From Planctomycetota bacterium (GTDB lineage Bacteria; Planctomycetota; Phycisphaerae; Phycisphaerales; SM1A02): a stretch of 56,710 bases of DNA. Positions 3,751 to 13,765 of this stretch are shown here, piece by piece. The stretch lies in contig QWPW01000022.1 in the NCBI GenBank assembly GCA_003671025.1, forward strand, positions 1-56,710, read 5' to 3'. The notes beneath the pieces are model-generated. The model was given only the letters and a program-made list of their open reading frames with translations. It was not told the DNA's origin and ran no database searches. The position numbers and the translations under genes are program-made. Position 1 is the stretch's first letter; every line of letters starts with the position of its first letter.

Positions 3751-5301
3751 ATGGCACGAATCCACGAACACCAGGGCAAACAACTTCTCGCGGCGGTTGG
3801 CATCAAAGTGCCTCGAGGTGGAGTTGCTCACAGCGCGGAACAGGCGAGTGCGGTGGCGACATCGCTCGGCGGCGAAGTGGTCGTCAAGATTCAAGCGTGG
3901 ACTACGGGACGCAAGGCGATGGGCGGCGTGGCGTTTGCGAATTCGCCTGCCGATGTCGCGCGTGAAACTGAACGCATGCTGGTCATGCGCGTGGGCAACT
4001 TTCCGGTTGAGTCGGTGCTGGTCGAAGAGAAGCTCAAGTTTGTGCGCGAGCTGTTTGTCTCACTGAGCATTGATGACCGAGCGCGTGCGCCAGTGATTTT
4101 GCTCGCTTCCGCAGGAGGCTCAGGCATTGAAGAACGCGCGCATGAAGTTGCGCGCATTCCTTGCAGCGTTTCGAGTGGGCCTAACGACGCGGCGCTCGCG
4201 AGCGCGGTGATGTCGCTGGAACTTTCAGCAGCGCAAAGCAAAAACGTCATCGTTGCGATCAACACCGTCTTCGCGTTGGCCAAGGCGCGCGATGCGCGCA
4301 GCATCGAAATCAATCCGTTGGTGATTCTTGCGGACGACTCAGTGGTTGCCGCCGATTGCCGCATCACCATCGACGACTACGCGGTGTGGCGTCACGCGGA
4401 TCTTGGAATCGAAATCGCGCGCGAGTTCGATCATCCGCCCACCGCACTCGAACGCATCGCCTACGACATCGAGCAAGCGGACCATCGCGGTACCTTCTAT
4501 TTCGCACAACTCGCGGTGGAACGCGCCGCAGGAACACGCGGTCTCGCAGGCTTTCACGGCGCTGGTGGTGGCGGCAGCATGATGAGCATGGACGCGCTCA
4601 CTGCGGAGAATTTCACCGTCGCGAACTTCACCGATACCAGTGGAAATCCCTCGGCAGCGAAGGTGTATCGCGCGAGTCGCGTGATCCTGAGTCAGCCAGG
4701 ATTGATCGGGTATTTCGGCTCTGGTTCTGGTGTTGCCAATCAAGAACAGTTCTGGTCGGCCTACGGATTAGCCAAAGCGTTTTGGGAACTCGACATTGAT
4801 ATTCCCGTGGTGATTCGCCTCGGTGGAAACGGCGAAGAGCGCGCGGTGGCGATTCTGCACGACGCTGCGCGTGACTTGCGCGCCGTTGTCGAGGGTTACC
4901 TCAAGACCGATTCGCCCGCGAAGATTGCGCGACGCTTTGGCGAACTGTGCGACAGCGCCGATGCGTGTTGGACTCCGCGTGCGCCGCGACGGCCGTCGTA
5001 TGTCGGCGACGCGAACGCGATCAGCTTTCCCATCACGGGAGGACGCGTGTGGATCGATCGCGCGCAATGGAAATCAAATGGTGCCAAGATCGTTGCGCAG
5101 TCGAGTGGTCTGTTGCGCGATGACCAAAGTGCGCCAGCGCTCGCGGTTGACGCGGACAAGTTCGCGAGCAAGGACAGCGAGTTGATCGCGTGCGAAGTGG
5201 AGTGCCGCATGCTCGGCCTCGATGGATTCTTCGTCGAGCTTGATGTGATGGGTCTTGATGCGGCGATCGAAACACGTTGCGTCGCAGGAGGAATCGCGTG
5301 A
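3751..5301 (+). CDS. ATP-citrate-lyase-like / succinyl-CoA synthetase beta-like ATP-grasp subunit with C-terminal extension
   Basis: The 516-residue protein opens like SucC (HEHQGKQLL, then an ATP-grasp segment VVVKIQAWTTGRKAMGGVA). Around residues 270-310 it has the beta-subunit power-helix region (GAGGGGSMMSMDAL...TDTSGNPSAAKVYRA). In this family the subunit grasps ATP and phosphorylates a histidine of the partner. The partner gene overlaps by GTGA and carries a CoA-ligase alpha plus citryl-CoA-lyase fusion, so together they match the two-subunit ATP-citrate lyase architecture. About 100 extra residues follow the ligase core (from ~405) and contain a CEVEC pair near the end; see findings. 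GAGGGAA precedes the start. The acid substrate (citrate or an analogue) is unknown. Confidence 0.8.
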   Translation: MARIHEHQGKQLLAAVGIKVPRGGVAHSAEQASAVATSLGGEVVVKIQAWTTGRKAMGGVAFANSPADVARETERMLVMRVGNFPVESVLVEEKLKFVRELFVSLSIDDRARAPVILLASAGGSGIEERAHEVARIPCSVSSGPNDAALASAVMSLELSAAQSKNVIVAINTVFALAKARDARSIEINPLVILADDSVVAADCRITIDDYAVWRHADLGIEIAREFDHPPTALERIAYDIEQADHRGTFYFAQLAVERAAGTRGLAGFHGAGGGGSMMSMDALTAENFTVANFTDTSGNPSAAKVYRASRVILSQPGLIGYFGSGSGVANQEQFWSAYGLAKAFWELDIDIPVVIRLGGNGEERAVAILHDAARDLRAVVEGYLKTDSPAKIARRFGELCDSADACWTPRAPRRPSYVGDANAISFPITGGRVWIDRAQWKSNGAKIVAQSSGLLRDDQSAPALAVDADKFASKDSELIACEVECRMLGLDGFFVELDVMGLDAAIETRCVAGGIA

Positions 5302-6998
5302 GCATTCTTATTGATCGCGATCAACGCGTGTGCGTGCAAGGCATCACTGGCCGTGAAGGACAAGCGCGCACGCAACTCATGCTCGACTACGGAACCAATG
5401 TGGTTGCGGGCGTGACTCCAGGGCGCGGCGGAGCGGAAGTGCTAGGAATCCCCGTGTTTGACAGCGTTTCTGCGGCGGTGGCCACCACTGGAGCCATCGA
5501 TGTGTCGGTGCTCTTCGTGCCCGCCAAGATGGTGCGCGAGGCCGCGATCGAAGCGATTGATGCGGGCGTGAAGTTGGTTGTGCTCGTGGCTGATCGCGTT
5601 CCTGTTTGGGATGCGATGGCGATCGCGGAACGCGCCGCTGCGCGCGGAGCCGAGTTTCTTGGACCGAACACACTCGGCGTGCTCAGCCCCGGTCGCGCCG
5701 TTGCAGGCATGCTCGGAGGTCGCGCCGAAAGCGCGCGGCAATGGTTCAAGCCTCCGCTTCCAACGGGCGTTGGCATCGTCTCGCGTTCGGGTGGCATGAG
5801 TAGTTCGACGGGCTACTACCTCGGTCAAGCGGGCGTGCGCATCAGCACCATCGTGCATGTTGGCGGCGACGCAGTGCTCGGCATTCGCATTCCTGAAGCC
5901 GCGCTGCGTTTCGAAAATGACGCGCACACCGAAGCGATTGTGGTCTTCGGTGAGATCGGTTCATCGCAAGAAGAAGAACTCGCCGAGCTCATGCGCGCGG
6001 GGCGCGTGACCAAGCCAGTCATCGCATATATCGGCGGAAAGGCCGCAAAAGAAGGCACTCGCTTCAGTCACGCGGGCGCGATCATCGAAGGTGGCCGCGG
6101 AACGCATGCAGGCAAAGTGCAAGCGTTGCGCGACGCGGGCGCGACGGTGGTCGATTCGTTTGGCGATCTCGCAGCGGCGACAGTGGAGCGACTCAAGCGC
6201 GCGGGTGGAAGCAGTCTTATGTCGCAAGCAGAGCGCGATGCGGTGTGGACCACCGCGGTCACGCGCATCGCACCCAACAGTGTGCGCGTGCGCGGTCACG
6301 ACATTTCCAACTTGATGGGTGATGTGTCATTTGGTGCGGCGGTCTATCTCATTCTCAGCGGCGCGCTTCCTGATCAACGCATCGGTCGTTTGATGGATGC
6401 GATTCTGGTGGCGAGCATCGATCACGGCGCGACTCCGCCTTCATGTCTCGCCGCGCGCACCGTCGCTTCGACTGGTGCTTCACTGAGCGCGAGTGTTGCC
6501 GCGGGCATCATGTCGATCAATCGTCATCACGGCGGGGCGATCGAAGATTGCGCGCGACAACTGGCACGCATCATCGCGCGCGCCAAGAGTGAAGCGACTT
6601 CACTCGAGCACGCGGCCAACGCGACAATGGTCGAATTCAAGGCGCGCGGAGAGCGTTTTAGTGGCTTCGGCCATCGCATCCACACCAAGGATCCGCGCAC
6701 GCCGCGCTTGTTTGAACTCGCCGCAGAAGCAGGCGTCGATGGTGCACACATGGCCGCCGCGCGCGCATTGCAAGATGCGTTCGCCGCAACAGGCAAACCA
6801 CTTCCGATCAATGTCGATGGAGCCATCGGCGCAATCCTCGCCGATGTGGGACTCGATCCCGCGCTGTTCAACGGCATCTTCATGATCGCGCGTACGCCAG
6901 GATTGGTCGCGCATGTCGTGGAAGAACAGACTCGCGAAAAACCGATGCGTCGCATCGATCCAGTCAAGCACGCATACGACGGTCCCGTCGTGTCGTGA
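5298..6998 (+). CDS. CoA-ligase alpha / citryl-CoA lyase fusion (AclA-like subunit)
   Basis: The start is the GTG at 5298, overlapping the upstream stop as GTGA, which suggests translational coupling; the product is 566 residues. Residues 1-300 match succinyl-CoA synthetase alpha: a CoA-binding Rossmann domain (VCVQGITGREG), then VSRSGGMS near 161 and the phosphohistidine loop FSHAGAIIEGGRGTH with His258. Residues ~310-566 match the citrate-synthase/citryl-CoA-lyase fold: DHGATPPS near 375, RHHGGAIED with His411, GFGHRIH with His459, and NVDG with Asp507. This His/His/Asp set and the NVDGxIG spelling resemble ATP-citrate lyase more than citrate synthase. The expected reaction is ATP- and CoA-dependent cleavage of a citrate-like acid to an acyl-CoA and an oxoacid. 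Substrate and direction are inferred. Confidence 0.85.
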   Translation: MSILIDRDQRVCVQGITGREGQARTQLMLDYGTNVVAGVTPGRGGAEVLGIPVFDSVSAAVATTGAIDVSVLFVPAKMVREAAIEAIDAGVKLVVLVADRVPVWDAMAIAERAAARGAEFLGPNTLGVLSPGRAVAGMLGGRAESARQWFKPPLPTGVGIVSRSGGMSSSTGYYLGQAGVRISTIVHVGGDAVLGIRIPEAALRFENDAHTEAIVVFGEIGSSQEEELAELMRAGRVTKPVIAYIGGKAAKEGTRFSHAGAIIEGGRGTHAGKVQALRDAGATVVDSFGDLAAATVERLKRAGGSSLMSQAERDAVWTTAVTRIAPNSVRVRGHDISNLMGDVSFGAAVYLILSGALPDQRIGRLMDAILVASIDHGATPPSCLAARTVASTGASLSASVAAGIMSINRHHGGAIEDCARQLARIIARAKSEATSLEHAANATMVEFKARGERFSGFGHRIHTKDPRTPRLFELAAEAGVDGAHMAAARALQDAFAATGKPLPINVDGAIGAILADVGLDPALFNGIFMIARTPGLVAHVVEEQTREKPMRRIDPVKHAYDGPVVS

Positions 6999-7063
6999 GT
7001 TGTGCTCATTCACATTGATCACAGTTCCTGTTCATCCTTCGTTCTCCTCAGCCTCAATCGACC

Positions 7064-7648
7064 ATGATTTACACCACCAAGCAGATCGCGGAAATCTTTC
7101 CCAACCTCATGGACATCAAAGACGCCTCGCTGCGCGACAAAGTGTCGGCGGTGTGGAACGAAGCGATCAACACCGGTTGCGGTGGCAAGGGTTGGACGGT
7201 GGCGGAATTGCGCGCGGTGAAATTCACGCTGCTCGCGGGCGACATCGAGATGACCTTTGTTGAGCATCTCAACAGCTGCTCACGTCAATGCATTGCCATC
7301 GCCGATGTGCTGGAATCAGCCTTTTCCTGCACGATTCCTATCAACCGCGACTACTTGATCGCCGGCGCGTTGCTCGCGGATTGCGGTAAGCCGCTCGAGT
7401 TCGACAAGGACGCCGCGGGCAACGTCATCAAGGGTTCGTTCGGCGAAGCGCTGCGCCATCCCTTCAGCGGAGTGGCCATGGCCTACAAGCACGGCGTGCC
7501 CGCCGAAGTGATGCACATCATCGCGACCCATAGTCACGAGGGCGACAAAGTCGAGCGCAGCATCGAGTCGATCATCTTCCATCACGCAGACTTCGTCGAC
7601 TTCGATATCGCGAAGTGGCTGGGCAAACGCGCCAAGCCTGCGAAGTGA
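7064..7648 (+). CDS. HD-domain protein with altered HD motif
   Basis: The 194-residue, probably cytosolic protein has an HD-phosphohydrolase layout: His in FVEHLNSCS near residue 69, LLADCGKPLEFD near 104-115 where LLHDIGK is usual, then RHPFSGVAMA and IIATHSHEGDK, which supply later histidines. The His of the HD doublet is replaced by Ala while the Asp remains. The metal site may therefore be weakened or of different chemistry. It sits 65 bp after the lyase subunit and 67 bp before the aconitase-like gene, so it is probably part of the same operon. It could be a phosphatase or hydrolase for a pathway intermediate, or a regulator; nothing in the sequence decides. Confidence 0.65.
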   Translation: MIYTTKQIAEIFPNLMDIKDASLRDKVSAVWNEAINTGCGGKGWTVAELRAVKFTLLAGDIEMTFVEHLNSCSRQCIAIADVLESAFSCTIPINRDYLIAGALLADCGKPLEFDKDAAGNVIKGSFGEALRHPFSGVAMAYKHGVPAEVMHIIATHSHEGDKVERSIESIIFHHADFVDFDIAKWLGKRAKPAK

Positions 7649-7715
7649 ATGCGCGTGTGATCAATCTGTTGTCATTGGTGTCTATCAACTCGCGAGCCCG
7701 CAAGAGAATCAGATC

Positions 7716-9743
7716 ATGAGCCAACTTCCACACCTTCCTCGCCTCACGCTTGTCGAGAAGATCGCCGCACGTTGGACTGACGGCTTGCCTGCGGGGGCAG
7801 TGGTGCGTCAAGGCGAGTTCGTGATGATTCGCCCCAAGCATGTGATGACGCACGACAACACTGGTGCGGTGATTCCGAAATTCAAGTCCATCGGCGCGAC
7901 GCGCATTCACGATCCGCATCAAGCGGTGTTCGCGATTGATCACGACATTCAAAACGTCACTGCGGAAAACCTGGGGAAATACGCCAAAATCCGCGCGTTT
8001 GCGCAGGAGCAGGGCGTTGACTTCTATCCCGCGGGCACTGGCATCTCGCATCAGGTGATGGTGGAGCAGGGCTACGTCGTCCCCGGAGCGATGGTGGTCG
8101 GCAGTGACTCGCACTCAAACTTGTACGGCGCGCTTTGTGCGCTGGGAACTCCAGTCGTGCGCACCGATGCCGCGGGAATCTGGGCGACGGGCACAACGTG
8201 GTGGCAAGTTCCCGCGGTCGCGCGTGTGACGCTCACGGGCAAACTCGCGCCGGGCGTCGTGGGTAAAGATGTCATCGTCGCGCTGTGTGGTTTGTTCTCG
8301 CACGACGAAGTGCTCAATCATGCGGTGGAGTTTGTCGGCGAAGGTGTCGCGAGTCTCACCATCTCGAGTCGCATGTCGATCTCCAACATGACTACCGAGT
8401 GGGGCGCGCTCGCTGGAGTGTTTCCCTTCGATGAAGTGCTGCGCGAGTATCTCGATTCGCGCGCGGATGTCTTCGCGCAAGCGACGAGTCACGACGCACT
8501 TCCTGGCGAGCGACGCGAGGGATCGCTCGGTCGATACTCGCGGGATGATGTCGCGCGCTGGTGGTCAACACGCGACGCGATTGCGGCCGACAGTGGTGCG
8601 CACTACGCCGTCGAACTCACGCTTGATTTGAGTTCCATCGTGCCGCATGTGTCTGGTCCCAACGAAGTGAAGGCGATGTCGAGTTTGCCCGAAATCGAGG
8701 CAAAACACGTGGTAATTCACAAGGCATGGCTCATGTCCTGCGTGAACGCACGCGTGGAAGATCTTGCCGCTGCCGCTGAAGTTGTGCGCGGAAAAAAGGT
8801 TGCTGTCGGCGTTGAGTTCTTCGTCGCGCCCGCAAGCAGTGAAGTGCGCGCAGAGGCAGAGCGACTCGGACATTGGCAGTTGCTCATCGATTGCGGCGCC
8901 ACCGTGTTGCCTGCAGGTTGCGGCACCTGCATCGGACTTGGTGCGGGATTGATCAAGAAGGGCGAGGTGGGAATCTCGTCGACCAATCGCAACTTCGAAG
9001 GACGCATGGGTGATCGCGAAGGACTGGTGTATCTCGGCTCACCAGCGGTGGTCGCGGCCAGCGCCATCGCCGGTTACATCTGCGCCCCAACGGCATTCGC
9101 GGCGATCACGCCGCGCATCAGCATCACGCGCACTGCGAGTGCGCCGCGTGCAGCGAGCGTCGCCACCATCATCGCGGGATTCCCTCAGGCGTTGCAAGGA
9201 CGCGCGTTGTTCATGGATCGCGACAACATGAACACTGACGGAATCTTCGCGGGCAAGCACACCTACAACGACAAGCTCACTGCGAGCGAGATGGCCGCGG
9301 TGGTGTTTGAAAACTACGACGCGACGTTCCGTGATCAAGCGCATGCGGGCGACATCGTGATCGGCGGCTACAACTTCGGCACGGGTTCGAGTCGCGAGCA
9401 GGCGGCGACGGCGCTCAAGTATTTTGGCATTCCCTGCGTGATTGCAGGGAGTTTCAGCGAGACTTACAAGCGCAACGCTTTTAATAACGGCGTGCTTTGT
9501 TTTGAAGCGCCCGAGTTTGTTGATGCGCTGCGCCTCGACGCACGCACCCGCCCCGCGGTCAAAACGGTTGACATGGGCGCGCTGTCTATCGACTTCGCAG
9601 CGGGGCGATTGGGGTGGAATCACCGCGAATTCCCCTTCATTCCGCTTTCTCCCGTCGCGCAGGAACTCATCGTGGCCGGAGGCGCAGAGGTTGTCATTCA
9701 ACGCAGACTCGCGGCGAACGTAGCCGGCTGCGTGAAGGCGTGA
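7716..9743 (+). CDS. Homoaconitase-like hydro-lyase (aconitase superfamily, fused swivel domain)
   Basis: The 675-residue protein resembles fungal-type homoaconitase (Lys4/HACN) more than AcnA/AcnB. Signatures include MTHDNTGAVIPKF, FAIDHDIQN, DFYPAGTGISHQ, VVGSDSHSN, TPVVRTDAAGIWATG and NMTTEWGALAG. The [4Fe-4S] ligands are Cys342 (SCVNAR), Cys402 and Cys405 (GCGTC). The swivel (small-subunit) domain is fused at the C-terminus (~490-675) with GTGSSREQA. The fold dehydrates and rehydrates tertiary hydroxy-tricarboxylates to isomerise them. Its place between a citrate-cleaving enzyme and an isocitrate-type dehydrogenase fits that role. The specificity (citrate, homocitrate, methylcitrate) cannot be fixed from sequence. 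Confidence 0.85.
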   Translation: MSQLPHLPRLTLVEKIAARWTDGLPAGAVVRQGEFVMIRPKHVMTHDNTGAVIPKFKSIGATRIHDPHQAVFAIDHDIQNVTAENLGKYAKIRAFAQEQGVDFYPAGTGISHQVMVEQGYVVPGAMVVGSDSHSNLYGALCALGTPVVRTDAAGIWATGTTWWQVPAVARVTLTGKLAPGVVGKDVIVALCGLFSHDEVLNHAVEFVGEGVASLTISSRMSISNMTTEWGALAGVFPFDEVLREYLDSRADVFAQATSHDALPGERREGSLGRYSRDDVARWWSTRDAIAADSGAHYAVELTLDLSSIVPHVSGPNEVKAMSSLPEIEAKHVVIHKAWLMSCVNARVEDLAAAAEVVRGKKVAVGVEFFVAPASSEVRAEAERLGHWQLLIDCGATVLPAGCGTCIGLGAGLIKKGEVGISSTNRNFEGRMGDREGLVYLGSPAVVAASAIAGYICAPTAFAAITPRISITRTASAPRAASVATIIAGFPQALQGRALFMDRDNMNTDGIFAGKHTYNDKLTASEMAAVVFENYDATFRDQAHAGDIVIGGYNFGTGSSREQAATALKYFGIPCVIAGSFSETYKRNAFNNGVLCFEAPEFVDALRLDARTRPAVKTVDMGALSIDFAAGRLGWNHREFPFIPLSPVAQELIVAGGAEVVIQRRLAANVAGCVKA

Positions 9744-9873
9744 GCTGATTCTTTCAACGCGAAGTGCGCGCATCAAGTTAGACTTGGAAACGCGCGCAGC
9801 GCAGCACTTGCCGCTGCGCGCATCTGCGAACTCAGTTCTTTCGACATCTCGTCAACACCAAAGGAACGCAACA

Positions 9874-11046
9874 ATGGCCAAGCACCAAATCGCGTGGATG
9901 CCCGGAGATGGAATCGGCAACGATGTAATGGAAGCGACACGCATCGTGCTCGATGCGATGAAGCTCGACGCCGATTACTTGCACTGCGACATCGGTTGGG
10001 ATTTCTGGTGCAAAGAAGGCAATCCGTTGCCCGATCGCACCATTGAGATTCTCAAGAAGACGCACTGCGGCCTCTTCGGCGCGATCACCAGCAAGCCACA
10101 AGACGATGCGTTGGAAGAGCTCGATCCATCACTGCGCTCGAAGGGCTTGGTGTATTTCTCGCCCATCGTGAAGCTGCGCCAGATGTTCAATCTGCACACC
10201 AACGTTCGCCCATGCAAGAGTTACGCGGGCAATCCGCTCAACTACCGCGGCACCCGTTTGGCCAATCCCACCAGCGCCGACATCATGTGCGACATCGTGG
10301 TTTTCCGCGAAAACACCGAGGGTTCTTACGGCGGCGTTGAGTTTGGACCGTTGCCAGAATCGGTGTACGACGCGCTCTGTCTCAATCCCAAGATGAAGCC
10401 GTGGAAAGACAAGGGCCTCGAGAATGTCGCGCTGTCGACACGCATTGTGAGCAAGCAAGGTTGCACCAACATCGTGCGCGGCGCGTTTGAGTTCGCCAAG
10501 AAGCACGGTCGCAAGCGCGTGACATTGGTCGAGAAGCCCAATGTTCTGCGCACCACTGGCGGCATGATGACGCGCATCTTCCGCGACGTGGCCAAGGAGT
10601 ATCCGGGCATCTGGGCCGATGAAGCAAACATCGACGCCATCTGCATGTGGATGTTCAAGAATCCACAGGAGTACTCGGTCATCGTCGCCGAGAATATGTT
10701 CGGCGACATCGTGAGTGATCTCTGCGCGGGACTCGTGGGCGGACTTGGCTTCGCCCCGAGTGCAAACATTGGTGACAAGTACGCGGTGTTTGAGCCAACC
10801 CACGGCAGCGCGCCGAAGTACGCGGGTCAATACAAAGTGAACCCACATGCGATGCTCATGACGGCACGCATGATGCTCGAGTGGCTGGGCGAGAAAGATC
10901 GCGCCGCCGCACTCGAGAACGCCATCGCACGCGTGATCGCCGAAGGCAAGGTCAAGACCTACGACATGGGCGGTAAGGATTCCACCCTCGATGTGGGTCG
11001 TGCTGTCGCTGCGTATGTCACGAGCGGCTCGCTGCAATCGGCGTGA
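9874..11046 (+). CDS. Isocitrate/isopropylmalate-type beta-decarboxylating dehydrogenase
   Basis: The 390-residue protein has a strong AAGGAA site 8 nt before the ATG. Family signatures are GDGIGNDVM at the N-terminus, two substrate arginines in LRQMFNLHTNVRP, FRENTEGSYGGVE, KPNVLR, the metal-binding NMFGDIVSDL, and HGSAPKYAGQ. The Lys-Tyr in APKYAGQ corresponds to the 2'-phosphate-binding pair of NADP-specific E. coli isocitrate dehydrogenase, so NADP use is inferred. The enzyme oxidises a secondary 2-hydroxy acid with a beta-carboxylate and releases CO2, or runs in reverse. Leader context is a 130-bp gap after the aconitase-like gene, the largest in the operon. Confidence 0.85.
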   Translation: MAKHQIAWMPGDGIGNDVMEATRIVLDAMKLDADYLHCDIGWDFWCKEGNPLPDRTIEILKKTHCGLFGAITSKPQDDALEELDPSLRSKGLVYFSPIVKLRQMFNLHTNVRPCKSYAGNPLNYRGTRLANPTSADIMCDIVVFRENTEGSYGGVEFGPLPESVYDALCLNPKMKPWKDKGLENVALSTRIVSKQGCTNIVRGAFEFAKKHGRKRVTLVEKPNVLRTTGGMMTRIFRDVAKEYPGIWADEANIDAICMWMFKNPQEYSVIVAENMFGDIVSDLCAGLVGGLGFAPSANIGDKYAVFEPTHGSAPKYAGQYKVNPHAMLMTARMMLEWLGEKDRAAALENAIARVIAEGKVKTYDMGGKDSTLDVGRAVAAYVTSGSLQSA

Positions 11047-11150
11047 TCCACTCACATGAATGCTGGTCATTGCGACGTGGTGTTGGTCGCTTCTGTGATT
11101 TTTCCCTTGTTTTCTAGCGTTTCTACGCACTTCGAGATGGAGCATTTTCT

Positions 11151-12623
11151 ATGTCCGCCACTGCGCACGCGACCAAGCCCAACGTCAAACTTCTTTCCCG
11201 CACGTTGGCCGAGTGGGCATGCAACCTCACGCCCGAGTCGCTTTCGCCCGAAGCGATTGATGCGTGCAAGCGATTCTGGTTTGACTCGATCGGTTGCGCG
11301 CTCGGAGGTAGCGGTCAAGAAGACGCGCACATTCTCTTGGCGCACTATCGACAGATGAATGGTCACGGCGATCAAGGCCACGGTCCGTGCACGTCGTTTG
11401 TCACGGGGTTCAAGACCAACGCTGTGGACGCGGCGTTTCTCAACGACCACATGATTCGTGCGATGGATTACAACGACATCTACTGGAAGGCGGATCCATG
11501 CCATCCCAGCGACATCATTGCGGGACCGTTGGCCTTGGCGGAGATGCTGGGACTTTCGGGAATGGATCTCTTACTCGGCACCGCGATCGCCTATGAAGTC
11601 GAGATGCGCTTGTGCGAGTTTGGCGTGCCTGGCATCCGTGAGTATGGATGGCATCACGCAACACTCACCGCGTTCGCGGCGCCCATTGCGGCGGGGCGCA
11701 TGCTCGGTTTGACCGTCGAACAGATGGTCAACGCCATCGGCATCAGCGCCTCGCGCACGTTCTCTCCTGGCGCAGTCACCGCCGGAAAACTCACCAACAT
11801 GAAGAACACGGTTGATCCGTGGGCAACGCGCATGGGTGTCGAGAGTGCGCTGTTGGCGCAACGGGGCTACTCGGGTCCCGAGCACATCTTCGACGGGAAA
11901 GAAGGGCTTTTCGCGGTGTTTTCCCATGTGCAGTACAAGGGCGAGAAGGCGCGCTTCGACACCGAGATGTTGCTGCATGAGTTGCCCACGTCGTCGAAGT
12001 GTCACTGGCGCATTCTTGATTGCGGCATGAAGAGCTTCCCTATCGAAGCGCTTTCGCACGCGCCGCTCACCGCGATGTTCAAGGCGATGGACAAGGCAAA
12101 GGCCGCGGGAAACGTGACGGCCAACGATGTCACCGAAATCAAAGTCGAAGTGATTGCGCGCGCCGCCGACATCTTGGGTGACCCACACAAGTATCGCCCC
12201 GATAGCAAAGAGACTGCCGATCACTCGCTGCCCTATTGCATGGCCGCAGGATTGGTCGACGGCATGGTGACGCCGTTGCAATTCAAGGAAGAGCGCGTCA
12301 TGGATAAGGCGCTCATTCCCATCATGGACATGGTGAAGGTTGTGCCCAACGATGAGTTTGAAAGTCTCTTTCCGAAGTTCCAGCCGAGCCGCGTGACGCT
12401 CACGTTCAAAGATGGTTCGCAACACGTTGCGCGTGTGGATGTGCCCAAGGGCGATCCGCGTGATCCGATGACCGTGGAGGAGATCGCGGTCAAGTTCCAC
12501 GCGCTGGGCGACGGCGTCCTTGGTCGCGCGCGTTGCGAGGCGCTGCGCGCGGAAATCATGGCGTTGGATAGCGCCCCCAATGTGCAGAAGCTGATGGCAC
12601 TCACGGTGCGCAAGACGACGTGA
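11151..12623 (+). CDS. MmgE/PrpD-family dehydratase
   Basis: The 490-residue protein is close to the usual PrpD length. It begins with a helical domain (LSRTLAEWACNL, DACKRFWFDSIGCAL), carries the signature HMIRAMDYNDIYWKAD followed by CHPSDIIAG, and includes GWHHATLTAFAAPIAAGRM and a C-terminal dimerisation part. The family includes 2-methylcitrate dehydratase and cis-aconitate decarboxylase, both acting on tricarboxylates without an iron-sulphur cluster. GATGGAG lies before the ATG. It is the last gene of the module, 104 bp after the dehydrogenase. No methylcitrate synthase (prpC) or 2-methylisocitrate lyase (prpB) gene is in view, so a standard methylcitrate cycle is not supported. Confidence 0.85.
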   Translation: MSATAHATKPNVKLLSRTLAEWACNLTPESLSPEAIDACKRFWFDSIGCALGGSGQEDAHILLAHYRQMNGHGDQGHGPCTSFVTGFKTNAVDAAFLNDHMIRAMDYNDIYWKADPCHPSDIIAGPLALAEMLGLSGMDLLLGTAIAYEVEMRLCEFGVPGIREYGWHHATLTAFAAPIAAGRMLGLTVEQMVNAIGISASRTFSPGAVTAGKLTNMKNTVDPWATRMGVESALLAQRGYSGPEHIFDGKEGLFAVFSHVQYKGEKARFDTEMLLHELPTSSKCHWRILDCGMKSFPIEALSHAPLTAMFKAMDKAKAAGNVTANDVTEIKVEVIARAADILGDPHKYRPDSKETADHSLPYCMAAGLVDGMVTPLQFKEERVMDKALIPIMDMVKVVPNDEFESLFPKFQPSRVTLTFKDGSQHVARVDVPKGDPRDPMTVEEIAVKFHALGDGVLGRARCEALRAEIMALDSAPNVQKLMALTVRKTT

Positions 12624-12656
12624 GTGAGCGCGCGCTCATGCGCTGATGTCAAACTC

Positions 12657-12662
12657 TATACC
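12657..12662 (+). promoter_or_regulatory. Possible -10 hexamer (TATACC) before the esterase gene
   Basis: TATACC ends 8 nt before the ATG at 12671. It lacks the final T of TAnnnT, so it is weaker than the other cases. If used, the esterase would have its own nearly leaderless promoter rather than reading through from the operon upstream. Confidence 0.35.
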
Positions 12663-12670
12663 GTGCGCGC

Positions 12671-13765
12671 ATGCTGAAACTGTGCATGAACGCCGCTGTT
12701 TTCGTTGGTGTTGTCGCCGCTGCTGCAACGGCCGCGCCTCCCGTACCGCCCGCGCCGCCCGCGCCATCCGCGCCGCCCGCGCCATCCATCGTCCGCGTGT
12801 ACTTGCTCGCGGGCCAATCGAACATGGAAGGTCATGGCGTCGTCGATCTCGATGACGCGCGCGACTACAACGGCGGTCGCGGCAACCTCGCGCAGTTCGT
12901 CGACGCGCCCGCCAATCGCACGCGTTGGAGTGATTTGCGCAATGCCGATGGTTCATGGTCGAAACGCGATGACGTGTTCGTCTCGTATCTCACTGAACAA
13001 GGCACGCAGAAAGCAGGCGCGCTCTCGGTGGGCTACGCGGTGTATGACGACGCGCATCACTTTGGTCCGGAGCTTGGCATCGGTCGCGCACTCGGTGCGA
13101 GGTTCGACGAGCCTGTGCTTCTCATCAAGACCGCGTGGGGTGGCAAGAGTTTGGCCAAGGACTTTCGTCCACCGAGCGCGGGTGGCGAAACTGGTCGCTA
13201 CTACACGCAGATGCTGAGTGAATTTCGTGCGGCGCTCGCCGCGATTCCACAAGCGTTTCCTGAGTTGGCCGATCGAACTCCGCGCGTAGAAGGCTTCATT
13301 TGGTTTCAGGGTTGGAACGATGGGTGCGAAGACAAGGCCGCGGCCGAGTACCAAGAAAATCTTGTGCATCTCATCAGCGATGTTCGCGCGGAGTTGCATG
13401 ACCCGACGCTTCCGTTTGTCGTCGGCGAAACGGGCAACATCGAAAACATGGTCTTGCGTGAGGCGCAGAAAAACGGATGCGCGCGTCGTGAAGTTGCCAC
13501 GGGAACGCGCTTCGTCGCAACCCGACAATTCCTGCGAAAACCCGAGGATTCGCCCAACTCTGGGCATGGTCATCACTGGTTTGGCAACGGCGAGAGCTAC
13601 CTGCTCATCGGCGATGCGCTCGGCTGCGCGATGGTCGAGTTGGTGCAAGCACGCGCGAAAGTTGTCGCGCCGAGCGAATCAAAACCAATAGCGCCCGCAG
13701 CGTCGGCTGCGAGCGCACCCAAGTCATCCGCGCCAGCAACGACGCGATCAATCACGACATCGTGA
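12671..13765 (+). CDS. Secreted SGNH/SASA-type carbohydrate esterase
   Basis: The 364-residue protein has a signal peptide (to about residue 22) followed by a Pro/Ala/Ser linker (PPAPPAPSAPPAPS). The sialate O-acetylesterase / DUF303 block starts at VYLLAGQSNMEGHG with the nucleophile Ser50 in GQSNMEG. Further blocks are KTAWGGKSLAKDFRPP, FIWFQGWNDGCED and GHHWFGNGESY, where the catalytic histidine should lie. The family removes acetyl groups from sialic acids or plant/algal polysaccharides outside the cell. It ends with an Ala/Ser/Pro-rich tail. It converges on the methyltransferase gene, with 7 bp between the stops. Confidence 0.8.
   Translation: MLKLCMNAAVFVGVVAAAATAAPPVPPAPPAPSAPPAPSIVRVYLLAGQSNMEGHGVVDLDDARDYNGGRGNLAQFVDAPANRTRWSDLRNADGSWSKRDDVFVSYLTEQGTQKAGALSVGYAVYDDAHHFGPELGIGRALGARFDEPVLLIKTAWGGKSLAKDFRPPSAGGETGRYYTQMLSEFRAALAAIPQAFPELADRTPRVEGFIWFQGWNDGCEDKAAAEYQENLVHLISDVRAELHDPTLPFVVGETGNIENMVLREAQKNGCARREVATGTRFVATRQFLRKPEDSPNSGHGHHWFGNGESYLLIGDALGCAMVELVQARAKVVAPSESKPIAPAASAASAPKSSAPATTRSITTS

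Follow-up and report, generated by a model that had tools for sequence, protein, structure and literature searches.

Which acid is processed by the six consecutive genes at positions 3751-12623 of contig QWPW01000022.1, from a Planctomycetota bacterium of the order Phycisphaerales (GenBank assembly GCA_003671025.1)? The contig was analyzed over its whole length of 56,710 nucleotides, hereafter the window; it is contig C15 of a genome (G000) of 3.25 Mb that is 95.9% complete, and its nearest relatives in the genome collection are Planctomycetota/Phycisphaerales bins. An original prediction had named six co-directional genes with gaps of at most 130 bp and proposed that their products, including an ATP-citrate lyase (ACL)-like enzyme, all act on one citrate-like acid, joining a 2-oxoacid plus CO2 to an acyl-CoA plus an oxoacid, with a nonstandard substrate such as a homo- or methylcitrate analog. 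A check of the open reading frames (ORFs) against Pfam and NCBIfam bears out the gene set, since all six are present on one strand, with the domains ATP-grasp_2, CoA_binding/Ligase_CoA/Citrate_synt, HD, Aconitase, Iso_dh and MmgE_PrpD in that order and with successive gaps of −4 (a GTGA overlap), 65, 67, 130 and 104 bp. Our answer is tentative, with chances somewhat short of even: read from its sequence, the operon might be a reductive homocitrate-splitting module for lysine catabolism. We infer the substrates and the direction of the reactions from the genes, their conservation, motifs, phylogeny and neighbors.

The route that we propose would begin with the conversion of lysine via 2-aminoadipate into 2-oxoadipate by enzymes whose genes stand beside the module in some relatives. 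The dehydrogenase (idh) would then carboxylate 2-oxoadipate with CO2 and NADPH to give homoisocitrate, the Lys4-type hydro-lyase (hacn) would dehydrate homoisocitrate to homoaconitate, and the PrpD-family enzyme (prpD) would hydrate homoaconitate to homocitrate, which is the half-reaction beyond the fungal Lys4. The ACL-like pair would finally consume ATP and CoA to form homocitryl-CoA via a phosphorylated His258 and cleave it into acetyl-CoA and 2-oxoglutarate. The net reaction would be 2-oxoadipate + CO2 + NADPH + ATP + CoA giving acetyl-CoA + 2-oxoglutarate, so that the 2-oxoglutarate spent as the amino acceptor would be returned and an intermediate of the tricarboxylic acid (TCA) cycle would be gained besides acetyl-CoA. 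The small HD protein has no step in this route; the predicted logic of one module joining a 2-oxoacid plus CO2 to an acyl-CoA plus an oxoacid is therefore supported, but not the claim that all six proteins act on the acid. As for the substrate, it is probably not citrate, as had been foreseen, and homocitrate is the best candidate. A little more guardedly still, the system might represent a carbon-fixing lysine catabolism in which the α-aminoadipate pathway is reversed over its first half and which has spread between Planctomycetota and Verrucomicrobiota. Its ATP-dependent homocitrate lyase, a citrate-synthase fold working on 2-oxoglutarate, and its PrpD-family homocitrate dehydratase would each be the first of their kind.

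The neighborhood, predicted from a single stretch, recurs in other genomes. When one genome per species was scanned for hacn with a six-sequence alignment as the query, at least 576 relatives were found and the best 80 were kept; 31 of these 80 loci are shorter than 14 kb, which makes the per-gene counts lower bounds. All six genes occur in 17 of the 80 loci, none of which departs from this order or strand, and because of this retention we regard the module as conserved rather than a product of chance. The 17 loci are all titled as Planctomycetota or a group within it. The partners of hacn were counted in 41 (ligase/lyase fusion), 35 (ligase beta subunit), 56 (HD protein), 59 (idh) and 27 (prpD) of the 80 loci, and among the 32 in which hacn is flanked by 8 kb or more on each side, 11 hold six genes, six hold five and seven hold hacn alone. 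Verrucomicrobiota loci such as L034 have five genes, with no prpD found; the Zixibacteria loci L068 and L089 also have five, with idh on the opposite strand, and one Latescibacterota bin has only hacn at the locus. A tree of 43 of the 84 hacn sequences, drawn with a midpoint root, places Verrucomicrobiota among Planctomycetota. An Acidobacteria contig with at least five module genes, two of them cut by contig ends, sits among Verrucomicrobia in this tree and may be a binning error. Within a sample of the phylum, hacn was matched at E 1e-80 in nine of 294 genomes, the own genome counted, and no match at this threshold was seen in G251, a genome of the same genus in that sample, which indicates that the trait is accessory. 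Module carriers include the isolate PMV_1.43 (locus L048). According to PMC9386943, little was deducible for one Phycisphaerales bin of Movile Cave.

The dehydrogenase (9874..11046, + strand; 390 aa; PF00180, 292.6 bits) carries the Lys-Tyr motif behind the predicted NADP signature, as do all 57 module-type dehydrogenases compared, a set that includes the window and a few proteins from partial-module genomes; these positions mark NADP use in Escherichia coli isocitrate dehydrogenase. In that enzyme Ser113 and Asn115 bind the γ-carboxylate of the substrate. The corresponding Ser-x-Asn motif is found in 33 of the 39 other members of the family taken from the same genomes, whereas all 57 module-type proteins have Ser-Pro-Ile (SPIV in the window), with Ile at the position of Asn115. 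Ile also stands in this column when the homoisocitrate dehydrogenase of PDB entry 3asj is aligned, and the best NCBIfam model in five of five proteins scanned is the homoisocitrate dehydrogenase AksF2 (AksF2_Meth in the window). In a midpoint-rooted tree of 29 of the 57 module-type and the 39 other dehydrogenases, the former make up a clade of their own apart from the 39 (support 100/98), in agreement with the original prediction. Another homoisocitrate dehydrogenase, 3ty3, was not among the PDB matches of a 111-residue piece of idh.

The hydro-lyase (7716..9743, + strand; 675 aa) had been described as resembling fungal homoaconitase, and it exceeds the cut-off of the homoaconitase equivalog TIGR00139 (711.4 > 529.9 bits), as do all eight hydro-lyases scanned, the other seven scoring 662-879 bits. 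Its large and small domains are joined in a single chain with the motifs SCVNAR, GCGTCIG and GSSREQ. The hydro-lyases of the Planctomycetota loci L014 and L016 score 879 and 842 bits, above that of the window, and are possibly kin of the ancestor of fungal Lys4. The prpD product (11151..12623, + strand; 490 aa), the proposed homocitrate dehydratase, belongs to the MmgE/PrpD superfamily (PF03972, 226.4 > 32.1 bits; PF19305, 123.8 > 32.1 bits), and its nearest PDB entries are cis-aconitate decarboxylase and IDS-epimerase (E 3.5e-23). According to PMC3556520, fungal Lys4/LysF interconverts homoaconitate and homoisocitrate only, and the step between homocitrate and homoaconitate is carried out by aconitases. 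In the module, this latter step would fall to the PrpD-family dehydratase encoded together with the Lys4-type enzyme.

The ligase/lyase pair has the architecture of AclAB, that is, an ATP-grasp beta subunit and a fusion of a CoA-ligase alpha subunit with a citrate-synthase domain. The beta subunit (AclA/SucC-like; 3751..5301, + strand; 516 aa; PF08442, 122.8 bits) has SucC as its best NCBIfam model, with a score of 192 bits that falls short of the cut-off of 370, and the blocks GGGGSMMSMDA and YFGSGSGVA are kept in 33 aligned sequences. The fusion (5298..6998, + strand; 566 aa; PF02629, PF00549 and PF00285) starts with GTG at 5298, overlapping the beta stop codon, and with numbering from that codon the four predicted residues His258, His411, His459 and Asp507 lie exactly at those positions and are conserved in 21 full-length fusions. 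His258 lies in the motif of the phosphohistidine, and the other three lie in those of the citrate-synthase catalytic residues. In other carriers such as G316, the ligase alpha and lyase halves are two separate genes. The nearest PDB entry to the lyase half is 6hxp (E 2.4e-52, aligned along nearly the whole length), which with 6hxq represents citryl-CoA lyase and citryl-CoA synthetase of Hydrogenobacter; the window differs from these in the fusion of ligase alpha and lyase. The fusion passes the PRK06224 subfamily models 1-6 (247.2 > 212) and 1-5 (199.9 > 193), and remains below the cut-offs of subfamily 1-3 and of the equivalogs 1-1, 1-2 and 1-4.

What points from homocitrate to lysine is the company that the module keeps in some relatives. 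In the Verrucomicrobia locus L038, the end of the fusion, the HD gene, hacn, idh and prpD are followed, in convergent orientation, by genes for piperideine-6-carboxylate (P6C) dehydrogenase (780 > 730 bits), which adjoins prpD, and L-lysine 6-transaminase (546.7 > 520.8 bits), which is cut by the contig end. In L015, from a genome (G278) of the same order as the host, a P6C-dehydrogenase ORF scoring 730 bits at a cut-off of 730 begins 10 bp past the end of idh, in the same direction. P6C dehydrogenase turns an aldehyde into an acid and is effectively a one-way enzyme, so that 2-oxoadipate is more likely consumed than made in those loci. A saccharopine-type gene, which passes the Pfam models Sacchrp_dh_NADP and Sacchrp_dh_C, has no NCBIfam name and matches PH1688 (3e-19), a putative saccharopine dehydrogenase (7e-16) and, weakly, aminoadipic semialdehyde synthase (1.4e-4) in the PDB, lies between the HD gene and hacn in L033, L031, L037 and L060, these loci being close relatives and the last three copies 94-97% identical to that of L033. 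It also precedes hacn by 0.8 kb in L026 and by 2.7 kb in L024 (73-74% identity to the L033 copy), and it closes a one-strand series of lyase half, GNAT, HD and saccharopine-type genes in L232 of G316. In the carrier G299 and in the hacn-negative genome G231, it is followed by a P6C-dehydrogenase gene (793 and 790 bits, respectively).

A number of observations weigh against this assignment. In the scan for the transaminase and P6C dehydrogenase, which covered the neighborhoods of 88 module loci, the former was found in one and the latter in two of them, neither was found in the window, and one of the two P6C-dehydrogenase-adjacent genomes, G278, has no ACL-like fusion by genome search. Of 19 Planctomycetota genomes with an ACL-like gene, 13 have the saccharopine-type gene at E 1e-40, compared with three of 20 genomes in this class that are hacn-negative (Fisher p 0.001), but three of the 13 positives (G309, G311 and G312) had been chosen after the gene was seen beside hacn, and without them the count is 10 of 16 (p 0.005); both p values ignore phylogeny. 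At the same threshold, it is absent from six of the 19 and from all four Verrucomicrobia/Zixibacteria genomes as well as G278, and it is present in the module-free sister genome G251. In the own genome, it is the only recognized lysine gene and lies on C12, away from the module; no lysine gene was recognized by eye among its neighbors, which were not scanned. With regard to the enzymes, the lyase half keeps the Arg positions (in DPR, IARTPG and MRRID) of citryl-CoA lyase, and to our knowledge all enzymes with a citrate-synthase fold use oxaloacetate, none being known to us that uses 2-oxoglutarate. The dehydrogenase has Ser where 3asj has Gly and is below every curated cut-off, including that of AksF2 (323 < 540 bits in the window, 275-330 in four others), and its sister clade (99/95) is made up of six proteins that also have Ile, the three tested being 3-isopropylmalate dehydrogenases; the motif thus speaks for a substrate other than isocitrate but does not prove that this is homoisocitrate. 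None of the PrpD cut-offs is reached by the PrpD-like protein (102.7 < 950, 62.4 < 575 and 50.9 < 458), and a relative is likewise far below those of the PrpD equivalogs. Moreover, 18 further hacn-bearing genomes were examined, most of them selected for showing no fusion close to hacn; eight carry the fusion or its two halves elsewhere, and in 10 neither was found. Unless these assemblies miss it, the lyase is thus lacking in some genomes that have hacn, idh and sometimes prpD.

Several of these observations would be explained if the operon were a second citrate-based reductive set, in which 2-oxoglutarate is carboxylated to isocitrate with NADPH, a split aconitase made of the Lys4-like and PrpD-like proteins gives citrate and a true ATP-citrate lyase yields acetyl-CoA and oxaloacetate, much as cytosolic IDH1/ACO1/ACLY work beside the mitochondrial-type oxidative TCA cycle. 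The closeness of the lyase half to citryl-CoA lyase, the two PRK06224 subfamily cut-offs that are passed, the ACL-like two-subunit architecture, the NADP motif and the minority of loci with lysine neighbors all agree with this explanation, and so does the finding that most carriers hold canonical oxidative enzymes separately, a finding that is also in keeping with the original prediction. In the 18 carrier genomes compared, a separate full-length citrate synthase is present in every one, with two copies in 15, an AcnA-size aconitase in 16 and another gene of the isocitrate/isopropylmalate family Iso_dh in 17. G306 has other aconitase-family genes instead of an AcnA-size aconitase; no other aconitase was found in G307, and the module copy is the only Iso_dh gene found in G294. 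The second Iso_dh gene of G000 scores 402 bits against isocitrate dehydrogenase PRK08997, below the cut-off of 510, and has the S-x-N motif. Against a citrate-based set stand the lack of the isocitrate-type Asn in all 57 dehydrogenases, the best scores of those scanned with homoisocitrate models, hydro-lyases that pass the homoaconitase equivalog in eight of eight cases and the lysine-catabolism neighbors, and we consider it unlikely, although far from negligible. With citrate synthase separate, and aconitase and isocitrate-type dehydrogenase mostly so, the module is not the cell's TCA set, and the idea that it forms the cell's own TCA cycle was rejected for most carriers, the exceptions being the aconitase of G307 and the Iso_dh of G294. 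Among the Iso_dh genes extracted, which do not include every copy, an isopropylmalate-dehydrogenase-type copy was seen in G306 only, and a single PF00682 gene is present in 15 of the 18 genomes; perhaps the carriers are leucine auxotrophs.

An improbable alternative is that the acid is another citrate analog, for instance a 4-substituted 2-oxoglutarate that is formed or cleaved via a substituted citrate, with propionyl-CoA or a longer acyl-CoA and oxaloacetate at the other end, or a longer homolog. Ile at the Asn115 position would leave room for more than one kind of side chain and also occurs in the isopropylmalate-dehydrogenase sister clade, and relatives of PrpD and aconitase are generally known to accept substituted citrates. 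In addition, a thiolase-family gene (L034:4267-5502, − strand; PRK06289, 382 > 375 bits) is encoded on the opposite strand upstream of the beta gene in five Spartobacteria/Verrucomicrobia loci (L034, L042, L045, L053 and L056). Besides this thiolase, however, no acyl-CoA gene was recognized among the recurring neighbors, of which representatives were scanned, and lysine genes are present.

It is quite improbable that the module runs forward, from acetyl-CoA and 2-oxoglutarate to 2-oxoadipate and CO2, with the ACL-like enzyme serving as an ATP-yielding homocitrate synthase for the synthesis of 2-aminoadipate, or of lysine with the saccharopine-type gene as in fungi. The enzyme types are those of the fungal aminoadipate pathway, a saccharopine-dehydrogenase-like neighbor exists, and 15 of the 18 carriers have a single HMGL-like gene (PF00682). 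LysA exceeds its cut-off in 17 of the 22 genomes searched, including 16 of the 20 with an ACL-like gene, which suggests that most carriers make lysine by the diaminopimelate route and do not need the module for lysine synthesis. It is below the cut-off or missing in the other five of 22, a further point against lysine breakdown; G301, G306, G309 and G310 are the carriers in question, and G309 has the saccharopine-type gene inside the module. The lysine transaminase and P6C dehydrogenase beside the module, on the other hand, point to lysine oxidation, and the NADP- and ATP-linked ends would suit the reductive, cleaving direction. The methylcitrate cycle, with which the original prediction had associated PrpD, was rejected as the main explanation: 2-methylisocitrate, a tertiary alcohol, could not be oxidized by an Iso_dh enzyme, and the PrpD models are far below their cut-offs.

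If the operon is read as a reductive homocitrate-splitting module, several known systems come close to it. With the reductive TCA segment (NADP-isocitrate dehydrogenase, aconitase and AclAB), it shares the order of the chemistry, namely reductive carboxylation, isomerization and ATP/CoA-dependent cleavage, and the lyase subunit architecture, while it differs in the Lys4-type hydro-lyase, the added PrpD-like protein and the non-isocitrate-type dehydrogenase, and its hosts keep the separate canonical enzymes described above. With the first half of the fungal α-aminoadipate pathway (homocitrate synthase, aconitase plus Lys4/LysF and Lys12), it has in common a Lys4-type homoaconitase and a homoisocitrate-dehydrogenase-like enzyme, but it is a bacterial operon with an ACL-like lyase in place of homocitrate synthase, a PrpD-like protein in place of aconitase and an NADP motif, and it probably runs backwards. 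The use of two enzymes for the two isomerization halves, proposed here for the module, has been shown for fungi (PMC3556520). The saccharopine route and the lysine 6-transaminase/P6C-dehydrogenase route, genes of which adjoin the module in some loci, would supply 2-aminoadipate. In the known lysine routes, 2-oxoadipate goes to glutaryl-CoA via OADH (PMC9367764) or to 2-hydroxyglutarate via HglS (PMC7286885), and not to homocitrate. The link to lysine is new relative to the original prediction. Neither the combination of the module, whose enzyme families are known, nor the term “homocitryl-CoA” was found in the open-licence literature searched. Were the proposal correct, the known fates of lysine carbon would be joined by one with CO2 fixation and a supply to the TCA cycle, and lysine, which yields acetyl-CoA, would also yield 2-oxoglutarate; the citrate-synthase fold would be extended to a further substrate, and an operon conserved in uncultured bacteria of soil and water would gain a role. 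Under any reading, autotrophy by the reductive TCA cycle should not be inferred from ACL-like genes alone in Phycisphaerales and Spartobacteria, because the carriers encode citrate synthase separately and, in most cases, aconitase and an isocitrate-type dehydrogenase as well. The bacterial proteins that pass the homoaconitase model TIGR00139 are also useful for tracing the origin of fungal Lys4.

The sixth protein (7064..7648, + strand; 194 aa) matches the HD family as predicted (PF01966, 30.5 > 22 bits; TIGR00277, 34.9 > 27.6 bits), but the intact metal-ligand doublet of HD phosphohydrolases is changed, as the His is replaced to give Ala105-Asp106, and Ala-Asp is found in 31 of 31 aligned sequences. 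It is 65-90% identical to 25 of 30 aligned relatives and 38-46% identical to the others, three from Zixibacteria and two from f25. The confident structure model, with a mean predicted local distance difference test (pLDDT) score of 91.9, matched no solved structure at 1e-3 or better, the nearest fold being YhaM (9h3f, E 2e-3), and the sequence had no PDB match better than E 0.07; no function is assigned to it for this reason. Plasmid homologs (approximately 28-33% identity) have transporter or regulator genes nearby in rhizobia and a varied context in haloarchaea, which is only suggestive of a role. Directly 5′ of the HD gene, a small DUF6958-type protein is encoded in eight Verrucomicrobia-type loci (L034, 9001-9282, + strand, the copy scanned; L036, L042, L045, L053, L058, L066 and L072).

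Other genes recur around the module. A GNAT acetyltransferase gene lies in or beside it in 10 Planctomycetota loci (e.g., L084:6594-7160, + strand). A tryptophanase-subfamily gene is near hacn in seven loci (L033, 8576-9937, + strand; L025, L031, L037, L060, L063 and L095), 3′ of the saccharopine-type gene in four of them, and scores 660 bits against PRK13238, below the equivalog cut-offs of TnaA and tyrosine phenol-lyase. The P6C-dehydrogenase locus L015 holds an unusual fusion of a macro domain and an aldehyde dehydrogenase domain in one ORF by Pfam (4704-6815, − strand). Histidine ammonia-lyase is encoded upstream of the module in six loci (L094, 785-2317, − strand, 580 > 539 bits; L079, L081, L085, L100 and L101), and a succinate-dehydrogenase-type flavoprotein in five (L077, 15519-17372, + strand; L026, L029, L043 and L052), 0.8-0.9 kb downstream of prpD in L043, L052 and L077. 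In L020 of the f25 genome G019, where no ACL-like genes were found, ORFs resembling cytochrome bd oxidase subunits by eye lie 5′ of the HD gene, hacn and idh on the same strand (6881-13062, − strand). The RNA search gave no riboswitch or other RNA clue, and found one tRNA in the window and one in the seven loci searched. Plasmid searches with hacn, the fusion and idh returned only relatives of less than 60% identity; one of these, an Iso_dh relative of 38% identity on a Legionella adelaidensis plasmid (L180:4428-8598), has RraA-family and 4-hydroxy-2-oxovalerate aldolase annotations among its neighbors and may belong to another uncharacterized carboxylate cluster.

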